NCBI GenBank assembly: GCA_964059195.1
Contig: CAXKWD010000007.1
Location: 58,777,163 to 58,841,162, forward strand
Reading direction: 5' to 3'
DNA: 64,000 nucleotides
DNA from: Ectobius pallidus
Lineage: Eukaryota; Arthropoda; Insecta; Blattodea; Ectobiidae
Part shown: in pieces, positions 56,431-60,787 of the stretch
How the letters are laid out: every line of letters starts with the position of its first letter
Position numbering within the stretch: position 1 is the first letter of the stretch
Position numbers and translations under genes: made by a program
The notes under the pieces: model-generated
What the model saw: only the letters and a program-made list of their open reading frames with translations
Told to the model about the DNA's origin: nothing
The model's database searches: none

Positions 56431-56932
56431 AATGGAAAAATTGTTTGAAAACTAATAACTGATTCTTATAGATTTTTGGGTGCTGATTTCAGGAAATATA
56501 GTAAAAAATTTCCATCACGTACCATTTTCTCACAATCTGTAATTTAAGTTTCAATATTCCGGAAATCATTGAACTATACTGGTGTAGTGATTGAATAAAT
56601 AAATTAAGTCCGTTTTACACTATTGTTATCATTTATTACACCATTACTTCTTTTATACAGTGCAAGATGTATCTATAATACAGTATTCTATCTAAGATGA
56701 CTAATAATGTGGAGTTATGTGTACTAAGTAATAACAGGAATTTATGAGTCATCTTCTCTTGCAATGCATGACTCATTTCCTCCAACTCCCATATACTCTT
56801 CTCTGTTCTGTACAATACAGTTGCAAGAATCAGTTGCAATTATAACATTGTGTGAATAGGTTCTGTTGTGAAATAGTTATTTCTATAGCCTGAATTTAGA
56901 CGATATTTTTTTTTTATGGTGTTGTACCAGTT

Positions 56933-57755
56933 GTGACTTTTCTTGTGGAATTCTGTGTAATGATGGCTTCAAGGGGTTGTGTCAATTCACCAAATAACTT
57001 CTGTTATATCTGTGGAGAGTTCGTAGTGAAAAAAAAGCAAAGAAATATTACAGACTTCGTTAAGAAAGTGTATTATGCATATTTTGGGATAAAATTAGGT
57101 GACCAAGATAAAACATGGGCTCCTCATCGAGTTTGTTCAATTTGTGTGGAAGAGTTCCGACAATGGCCTAAAGGTAAAAAAACACAGTTTCGTTTTGGAA
57201 TTCCAATGATCTGGAGGGAACAGCAGAATCACATTGATGACTGCTATTTCTGTTATTGTAATATACAAGGGTTCAATCTAAAAAATAAGAAAGAAATTGT
57301 GTATCCAAATTTCCCTTCAGCAATACGGCCTGTACCTCGTGGTCCTGGTATACCTGTACCTTCAGTTCCAGAAAAACTAGAAGATGCTTTGAATGACTGT
57401 GAAACAATGTCTAATGATGATGGTGATGATGACGAAGACTATATCTTAGGCAGTTCTGAACCGCAACTTTTTTCACAGCATGAACTGAATGACTTGGTCA
57501 GAGATTTGGCTCTTCCTAAACATTCAGCAGAATTATTAGGCTCTAGATTAAAAGAAAAAAAACTTACTGGCCCCTGGTACCTCCTTCTCATGGTTCAGGA
57601 ACAGAGAAAAACATTTTACTCCATACTTTTCTCAAGAAGAAGGCCTAGTTTATTGTAACAATGTTCCTGGTCTGATGGAGCAGTTGAAAATAACATATAA
57701 TGTGAATGAGTGGAGACTCTTTATTGATTCATCTAAAAGAAGTCTCAAAGCAGTT
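56933..57755 (+). pseudogene. Unclassified Cys-rich family protein, N-terminal half
   Basis: The likely start is MASRGCVNSPNNFCYICGEF. Paired cysteines (CYICG, CSIC, CYFCYC) in the first 110 residues suggest a zinc-binding domain. An acidic linker (NDDGDDDEDYILG) follows, then QHELNDLVRDLALPKHSAEL. A frameshift near 57560-57610 moves the frame to YFSQEEGLVYCNNVPG ... WRLFIDSSKRSLKAV, cut at 57755 by a Penelope-like insertion. An Asp in FIDSSK could be the first residue of a DDE-like site; this is speculative. The second half resumes at 59656. Confidence 0.6.
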
Positions 57756-59642
57756 GTAGAAAATCTTCTCGGGCTTGCAGCCAGGTGAGAAGTTTGTTGT
57801 GGTCCAACGTTTCCGAGGCTGACGCTGCCTCCATCCTCAGGGAATCTGAAGTGTTGAGTTTTAACATGTAAGGAATATATATACCAACCCGTGTTGGGCG
57901 GAGTCGACCAATCAGGGAGCAGCTGTTCTGTTTTCGGTCCTTTTCCGGGCCAAAATTTTCCTTTTACCTTTCAGGTCCTGAATGCATTCGTTCCAGGCCT
58001 GGTTGATAGTGAAACCTTCATCCCTGTTAAAGTTTGTGTCTTCCAGTTCACAAGACCAGGGTACCTCTACGACCCATAGTCAGCGCCATAGGTTCTCCAA
58101 CGTACCGGCTGGCTAAACACCTATCCAGCTTATAAAAGCCGCTAGTGGGCAGTTGCCAACATCACGTCAAGAATTCCATGGAATTCATAAACACTATCAA
58201 ACAGAATCAACGATAGAGATCTACTCGTAAGCTTCGATGTGGTCTCCTTATTTACAAGAGTGCCAATTGAAGACTCACTACAGCTGCTGACACCACACTT
58301 TAGCCCAGACGTAATCCAGCTCTTCCGGCATACATTGACTTCGACCTATTTTCTCTATCAGAACAATTACTATGAGCAGACAGACGGAGTAGCTATGGGG
58401 TCGCCGCTATCACCGGCTATCGCAAACCTGTACATGGAACACTTTGAACACAAGGCTCTGGACACAGCACCTTTACAACCAGCTCACTTCTACAGATACG
58501 TTGATGATATGCTCATCATTTGGCACCATGGACATGAAACACTACCGGACTTCCTGAATCACCTCAATAGCATACATCCTAACATCACCTTCACCATGGA
58601 AATGGAAAAATATGACTGTCTTCCGTTTCTGGACATTTTAATTCAGAGGAAACCGGATGGAACTCTAGGACATAGAGTCTACAGGAAACCTACACACACC
58701 GATCTCTACCTTAACGGCAACAGTCACCACCACCCAGCCCAACGCAGGAGTGTCCTTCATACAATTACCAACAGAGCTCTCGCCATCTCGGACACAGACA
58801 GCCTACCCGGGGAAATAAATCATCTCAAGATGATCTTCAAACAGAATGGGTACCGGGACGCTGAAATCCGACGGGCCCTGAAAAGGACCGGTTCTCAGGA
58901 AACCACCGACCAAAGAGAAAAGACTAGAACTGCCTACCTGCCATACTTTGGAAACCTGTCCAGGAAGCTAGAAAGGATTCTAATGAAACACCAGATCCGT
59001 ACAGTGTCCATGCCACCCCCCAAAATTAAGGACCTCCTACGACCTGTGAAAGACAACATGGGACTTAGAACTCCGGGTGTTTATCGCATCCCATGTGAAT
59101 GCGGTAAAGCCTACATCGGACAGACTTCACGTAAAATTGAACAGCGCTGCAAAGAACACGAAAGATGCATTAGACTCTTCTACCCGGACAAATCAGCAGT
59201 TGCAGACCACACCATTAATTCTGGACCAGGTCACAGAATAAAATTTAAAACCACAACAGTACTCGCCAAGACAACACGCTATTGGGACCAAATCATCAGA
59301 GAGGCAATTGAAATTAGACTGGAAGACACAAACTTTAACAGGGATGAAGGTTTCACTATCAACCAGGCCTGGAACAAATGCATTCAGGACCTGAAAGGTA
59401 AAAGGAACATTTTGGCCTGGAAAAGGACCGAAAACAGAACAGCTGCTCCCTGATTGGTCGACTCCGCCCAACACGGGTTGGTATATATATTCCTTACATG
59501 TTAAAACTCGACACTTCAGATTCCCTGAGGATGGAGGCAGCGTCAGCCTCGGAAACGTTGGACCACAACAAACTTCTCACCTGGCTGCAAACCCGAGAAG
59601 ATTTTCTACATAAGATTCGCCAGGAAAGCCTCAAATCTTACA
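57756..59642 (+). mobile_element. Penelope-like element with 292-bp inverted ends
   Basis: An exact 13-bp target duplication TCTCAAAGCAGTT flanks it (57743-57755, 59643-59655). The first 292 bp (57756-58047) are the inverse of 59318-59609, i.e. an inverted copy of the element's own 3' end including the last part of its coding frame. A 33-bp tail (59610-59642) follows only on the right. Between the inverted ends lies a 5'-truncated RT/GIY-YIG gene starting at about 58048. The ends hold a hammerhead-like core (CTGAGGA, stem GAGGC/GCCTC, GAAAC) at about 59525-59560. Confidence 0.92.
58048..59453 (+). pseudogene. Penelope-like RT plus GIY-YIG endonuclease, 5' truncated
   Basis: From 58048 the RT fingers region (PLRPIVSAIGSPTYRLAKHL) is visible with a stop near 58133 and a shift near 58205. 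From 58239 the frame is open for 404 residues: DVVSLFTRVPIE (motif A, starting just upstream), GVAMGSPLSPAIANLYME, HFYRYVDDMLIIW (YVDD), FLDILIQR and RVYRKPTHTDLY, then the INHLKMIFKQNGY block. The C-terminal endonuclease is GVYRIPCECGKAYIGQTSRK, with Arg/His-rich RCKEHERCI following. The frame ends at TGA 59451-59453 inside the right inverted repeat. The catalytic cores are intact; the N-terminus is missing. Confidence 0.92.
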
Positions 59643-59655
59643 TCTCAAAGCAGTT

Positions 59656-60542
59656 CTTCTTCACAATGGCAACAAATATGCATCAGTGCCAGTAGGACAT
59701 TCTGTATATTTGAAAGAATGTTATGAAAATGTAGAACTAATTCTAACTAAGCTGAAATACTGTGATCATGAATGGACAATATGTGGTGATCTAAAAGTAA
59801 TTTCAATGCTCCTTGGACAGCAGGGAGGATATACAAAATATCCCTGCTTCTTGTGTGAATGGAACAGGCAGGATAAAAAAGAGAATTGGATCAGGAAGGA
59901 GTGGCCACCTAGGGGTTTATTAGAACCTGGAAGCAAAAATGTGATTCGGCAAAGATTGGTTGATCCACGAAAAGTCCTCCTACCTCCACTTCATATCAAA
60001 CTTGGATTAATGAAACAATTTGTTAAAGCTCTGTCAAAAGATGGGGAGTGTTTCAAATACATATGCCACAGGTTTTCACAACTGTCAGAAGCAAAACTAA
60101 AAGAAGGCGTTTTCATAGGACCAGATATTAGAAAACTTTTAAAAGATGAAAACTTTGAAACCAAAATGGACGAAGTAGAAAAAGAGGCATGGAAAGCTTT
60201 TAAAGAAGTTGTAACAAAATTTCTTGGGAACAATAAGGACCCTAACTATAAGTGTATAGTAAACAACATGCTATCAAAATTCAAAGACTTGGGTTGTTCA
60301 ATGAGCTTGAAGGTACACTTTCTACATTCTCATATCGACTACTTTCCCGAAAATCTTGGCCCCGTCAGCGAGGACACCAAGACATAAAGGAGATGGAACG
60401 TAGATACCCGGGAAGTTGTAACGTGAACGTGCTTGCAGACTACTGTTGGAGCATCTATAGAGACGAGCCGCAAGCTGACAAGAGGTTTAGTGGCAGAAGA
60501 AGTGTTGAAGGAAAACGAAAATGGAACTATAAGCTGTTGTAA
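59656..60542 (+). pseudogene. Unclassified family protein, C-terminal half
   Basis: Continues the protein broken at 57755: LLHNGNKYASVPVGHSVYLK, ICGDLKVISMLLGQQGGYTK, YPCFLCEWNRQDK (a second Asp candidate beside a Cys pair), VDPRKVLLPPLHIKLGLMK and LGCSMSLKVHFLHSHIDYF. Near 60360 a small deletion shifts the frame to GHQDIKEMERRYPG ... DYCWSIYRDEP, ending at 60542. Removing the Penelope-like element and one copy of its duplication restores a continuous frame across the break, which confirms the two halves are one gene. Confidence 0.65.
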
Positions 60543-60787
60543 AGGTATATTTTTATTCATAGATTGTTTAACTTTAGCAAAATTCAAGACATAACTGTAT
60601 TATTTTTTTATAAATATAATGTTTTTTCCATGTAGTATATTTACAAAACATATGCATTTTTCCATTTTTGTGTCAAGTCCATGCTTATTTTGTGAAAACA
60701 CCTTACGTGATAGGAGAAAATGGTGGTCATATTTGAATTCAGCACACAAAATAACATAAAAACCAGTCATTAGATTGCAAACAATTT

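Follow-up and report, generated by a model that had tools for sequence, protein, structure and literature searches.

What kind of genetic element is represented by the cysteine-rich protein gene that lies between inverted repeats, and splits a reverse transcriptase (RT) gene, in a 64,000-nucleotide stretch of the Ectobius pallidus genome (assembly GCA_964059195.1, contig CAXKWD010000007.1, positions 58,777,163 to 58,841,162; hereafter the window)? The original prediction, made from the sequence alone, had proposed a DNA transposon with an undescribed transposase. The locus was indeed found to be a transposon, and with a probability of about 0.87 it represents a Chapaev3-type element of the CMC/Transib/RAG1 group, i.e. 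a new member of a group that is already known; it was assigned to this type because all the published Chapaev3 hallmarks open to checking are present.

On the basis of open reading frames (ORFs), protein matches and tblastn, the transposase gene consists of four pieces on the plus strand between the inverted arms; the features of the element are as follows (coordinates are those of the window).

56417..56419, no strand: TAA, left copy of the 3-bp target duplication, with A in front of it (alignment of the copies' ends; empty sites)
56420..60787, plus strand: decayed transposon, probably of Chapaev3 type, including a nested insert; first letters CACAGGTC, where the homology with the copies begins
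56438..56491, plus strand: left inverted repeat, inner part; 54 nt, 80% complementary to 60734-60787
60734..60787, minus strand: right inverted repeat, inner part; pairs with 56438-56491
56960 to about 57569, plus strand: transposase N-terminal piece (reading frame)
56960..57385, plus strand: predicted N-terminal zinc domain with three CxxC pairs (model, PDB profile search, hhalign, zf-AD matches)
57570..57755, plus strand: transposase core piece 1, in another frame than the N-terminal piece
57726-57728, plus strand: codon of the first putative catalytic Asp (FIDSSK; alignment with relatives)
59650..60375, plus strand: transposase core piece 2 (protein match)
59788-59790, plus strand: codon of the second putative catalytic Asp (CGDLK; alignment with relatives)
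59845-59847 and 59854-59856, plus strand: Cys codons of C(2)C
60316-60318 and 60331-60333, plus strand: His codons of H(4)H
60366..60542, plus strand: transposase C-terminal tail in a different frame, after a small lesion (tblastn pieces)

The ends of the element were deduced from the 20 closest loci of the same genome (2.12-Gb assembly, 410 contigs), extracted with their flanks. The left end is kept in 13 of these, the element start corresponding to window position 56420 and the terminus reading CAC in 12 of the 13 (TAC in L050); the right end, kept in 19 of the 20, reaches about 28 nt beyond window position 60787 and terminates in GTG in all 19 loci. Because the copies share CACAGGTC at 56420 and continue for about 28 nt past 60787, the ends were moved outward from 56438 and 60787: the inverted ends of about 50 bp postulated originally do exist as the 54-nt pair but constitute the inner part of the repeats only. 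In the window copy the approximately 28 right-terminal nucleotides, whose tip reads GACCTGTG in the majority of the other copies, are gone, as is the right target duplication. Both ends are preserved in 13 of the 20 loci, and ten of these 13 show an exact 3-bp duplication (nine TWA, i.e. TTA or TAA, and one CTA) with A before and T after in all ten cases. Among nine loci of two other subfamilies, with ends read from the search output, five (L032, L035, L037, L039, L040) are bounded by CAC..GTG with the same triplet, TTA or TAA, in both flanks. A hAT element was rejected by the length of the duplication (3 bp here versus the 8-bp target duplication expected of hAT transposons).

The insertion splits the RT gene of a non-LTR retrotransposon on the minus strand, as had been recognized from the sequence; its two portions are:

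55795..56193, minus strand: host non-LTR retrotransposon RT, portion downstream of the insertion (RVT_1 1.1e-9)
60790..61140, minus strand: host non-LTR retrotransposon, portion upstream of the insertion (paralogues of 88-90% elsewhere in the genome)

All eight paralogues examined (taken from the upper part of 40 listed places) are devoid of the insert; the empty site ..GGTATAATAATAG.. (A-TAA-T) is exact in four of them and present as variants in the other four, with L063 lacking the TAA.

The protein belongs to a large family: 2132 relatives were found at E<=0.001 among 4500 candidates, and the window genome contains at least 151 protein matches at more than 100 dispersed places, a lower bound since scoring covered 150 of the 7020 first-look candidates. 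Where entries among the 120 best matches bear a name in the database, it is hypothetical or uncharacterised, in agreement with the original description of an uncharacterised multi-copy family. These names could be taken to indicate a normal family of arthropod host genes located between inverted repeats by chance, and Pfam likewise yields nothing beyond a weak match to zf-AD, which occurs in transcription factors of insects; this explanation is, however, refuted by the copy number, the common ends, the target duplication and the empty sites, to which the predicted RAG1/Transib fold with its invariant DDE residues is added, and retains next to no probability. Shared termini with a 3-bp duplication and a multi-copy family are the opposite of the unshared ends or single-copy host gene that the original prediction had named as contrary evidence. 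Less damaged relatives measure approximately 2.4-2.5 kb, are bounded by inverted repeats with CAC...GTG termini and carry a single transposase gene of about 564 aa in one uninterrupted frame; some of the listed genome matches are stop-free open frames of 545-600 aa. L032 has a 564-aa open frame, starts with CAC, ends with GTG and is flanked by TAA on either side; it is 97.8% alike to L033 of the same other subfamily, which suggests, as judged by sequence, recent activity of this subfamily. Viral contigs contained no relative (the single match, L001, was due to chance, and an alignment scan gave none), and the viral fold library gave no match at E<=0.001. A phmmer search of PDB with core piece 2 yielded three chance matches.

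The alignment of 90 relatives (residue numbers as in P0004) revealed that Asp-254, Asp-308 and Glu-506 are invariant in all 90, as are the C(2)C cysteines Cys-327/Cys-330 and the H(4)H histidines His-484/His-489; of the LH motif, Leu-375 is present in 90 of 90 and His-376 in 89 of 90. The two aspartates are those of FIDSSK and CGDLK, which had been singled out beforehand as catalytic candidates. According to structural alignments, the predicted core adopts an RNase-H-like fold of the RAG1/Transib type. By its conserved residues and predicted fold, the protein is the DDE transposase of the element, with Asp, Asp and Glu as its putative catalytic residues.

The comparison with Chapaev3 was one of features and was based on published descriptions (PMC4079192 and PMC4411706). 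Chapaev transposons are described there with CAC..GTG ends, 3-4-bp duplications and the motifs C(2)C, LH and H(4)H, and Chapaev3 with insertion between A and T and a TWA duplication (PMC4079192); Chapaev3 is placed in the Transib superfamily together with RAG1, and its zinc domain, termed Chapa, is also reported from the N-terminal part of RAG1 (PMC4411706). The present family resembles Chapaev3 (Garfield, Merrow, Conan) in termini, 3-bp TWA duplication between A and T, motifs, the N-terminal Chapa zinc domain as predicted here, and transposase length (approximately 564 aa versus 556 aa in Garfield; PMC4079192); the Chapa-domain match was judged against the domain of RAG1, not against Chapaev references. 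In contrast to the two exons of Garfield and Merrow, the relatives possess one uninterrupted frame, as do most Chapaev3 (PMC4079192). That the transposase is undescribed is not supported: termini, duplication, motifs and domain layout fit the published group. IS3EU/GingerRoot elements, for which TA..TA termini (occasionally TG..CA) and a 6-bp duplication are given in PMC10045372, were ruled out on the basis of that description by the CAC..GTG ends and the 3-bp duplication.

A Transib or RAG-like (TransibSU/ProtoRAG) element in place of Chapaev3 is very improbable: the duplication comprises 3 bp in ten of 13 copies, as against the 5 bp usual in Transibs (PMC4411706), the Pfam families listed (25 of 28) include no RAG1 model, and in the copies of about 2.5 kb only the transposase gene was seen, no search having been aimed at RAG2-like genes. 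The identity with RAG1 and TransibSU/ProtoRAG amounts to 10-12%. Unlike Transib (HzTransib), the family has a predicted N-terminal zinc domain, which is absent from the canonical Transib (PMC4411706). For the RING domain, the families listed for 73 relatives (25 of 28) include no model, and 17 N-terminal pieces gave one weak match (E 0.072).

Several observations weigh against the Chapaev3 assignment or the evidence behind it. The structural alignments of the core show only 10-14% identity, and the N-terminal match to RAG1 is by itself weak (E 0.051). Unequal duplications flank three of the 13 two-ended copies (L041, L048, L053), and seven of the 20 closest loci lack one or both ends (six with the right end only, L045 with neither). 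In the other subfamilies, the flanking triplets of L033 and L034, which share one right flank, are unequal, and L036 and L038 have one decayed end (two of nine loci in each case). A profile of the whole protein searched against PDB sequences did not find RAG1/Transib and gave one chance match (E 0.95). Finally, the placement in Chapaev3 as opposed to a sister CMC lineage is founded on features, not on a tree. The main rival is accordingly a separate, unnamed CMC/Transib (CMCT) lineage, near Chapaev3 in ends and motifs but outside it: besides the kind of comparison described above, it would be compatible with the uninformative names of the best matches and with the Pfam scan of 73 relatives, in which only a weak zf-AD recurs (49 relatives; the other 24 among the 25 of 28 families listed match one or two members each). 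We consider it improbable, since the termini, the TWA duplication between A and T, the three motifs, the length close to that of Garfield, the intronless frame and the RAG1-like N-terminal zinc domain are all those of Chapaev3.

Under the Chapaev3-type assignment, the transposase, bound to the inverted ends, would excise the element through its Asp/Asp/Glu triad and metal ions; the flanks would probably be hairpinned, by analogy with RAG1, Transib and hAT, and integration into A-TWA-T sites would leave the 3-bp duplication. The N-terminal Cys pattern would bind zinc, and the family may be active at the present day.

The window copy itself is a dead transposon for which no activity is expected, because its reading frame is broken (near 57570), the Glu region is lost (a small lesion at about 60372, where the relatives carry the third putative catalytic residue, Glu-506 of P0004), the right end is missing, and an insert of approximately 1.9 kb, which the original prediction had not mentioned, splits the gene at 57756-59642. 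The features of this insert are:

57756..59642, plus strand: putative Penelope-like element inside the transposase gene (RT ORF, inverted arms, genome copies)
58191-59453, plus strand: RT ORF of the putative Penelope-like element (RVT_1 2.5e-13)
57755-58047 and 59318-59610: inverted arms of the element, 293 nt, 98% complementary
57743..57755, no strand: left 13-bp direct repeat TCTCAAAGCAGTT beside the insert (read from the sequence)
59643..59655, no strand: right 13-bp direct repeat beside the insert (read from the sequence)

The element was designated Penelope-like because a GIY-YIG-like tail of the RT ORF was recognized by eye; the assignment is thus a putative one. It is younger than the transposase gene in which it sits, and tens of copies at about 96% are found across the genome. 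Several of the copies occur in opposite-strand pairs at close spacing. A more diverged transposase copy (L010:3082-6307, C7:73.89 Mb) is split by the same element at another position of the gene. The window copy inserted itself into a non-LTR retrotransposon, received the putative Penelope-like element, and suffered the loss of its right end and of the reading frame. Separate from the transposon, what is left of the C-terminal dimerisation region of a hAT transposase (Dimer_Tnp_hAT 5.6e-10) is located at 62214-62531 on the plus strand.

The zinc-type Cys pattern of the proposed N-terminal zinc-binding domain is present. A profile search against PDB with the N-terminal domain matched RAG1 only, and weakly (E 0.051-0.44); phmmer of the window N-terminal piece against PDB found nothing. 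Aligned with hhalign to RAG1 residues 107-223, the domain scored above all 200 + 200 shuffles. The nearest fold of the predicted model is, weakly, ZAD, the ZADs of Grauzone, Pita and Serendipity-delta forming the top three VIA rows of the fold comparison; zf-AD matches 16 of 17 N-terminal pieces (weakly), in line with the 49 of 73 relatives mentioned above. Part of the ZAD signal may represent generic zinc-finger spacing, because other models match too: FYVE five of the 17 pieces (best 0.025), BIR three of 17 (best 0.0094), and, on RAG1 107-223, FYVE (0.053) and an unrelated viral model (0.023). RAG1_imp_bd matches four of 17 pieces (best 0.07). Profile and model thus suggest that 56960..57385 is the counterpart of the N-terminal central non-core (Chapa) domain of RAG1, with similarity to ZAD. 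In the pairings tried, the N-terminal domain, the RAG1 N-terminal domain and insect ZAD gave weak mutual scores. A tentative idea, which we regard as rather unlikely, is that a single homologous domain is present as the zinc domain of the transposase, the N-terminal central domain of RAG1 and the ZAD found in insect C2H2 zinc-finger proteins. No literature linking Chapaev to ZAD, or a transposase to both ZAD and RAG1, was found; subscription journals were mostly outside this search, so that the idea is not shown to be unpublished. The ZAD similarity, if real, would join two well-studied protein families; under the idea of one domain, the ZAD dimerisation module, which belongs to a very large family of insect transcription factors, and part of the vertebrate V(D)J recombinase would both derive from a transposon-borne (or transposon-captured) zinc module.

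For the family as a whole, the assignment gives a name and a likely mechanism to a large set of "uncharacterised" proteins, possibly included in counts of host genes. According to predicted structure and profile, its Chapaev3-type transposase would have the layout of RAG1, an N-terminal zinc domain followed by the core, and the many open-frame relatives in the genome would make questions of RAG1 ancestry testable in a compact system.
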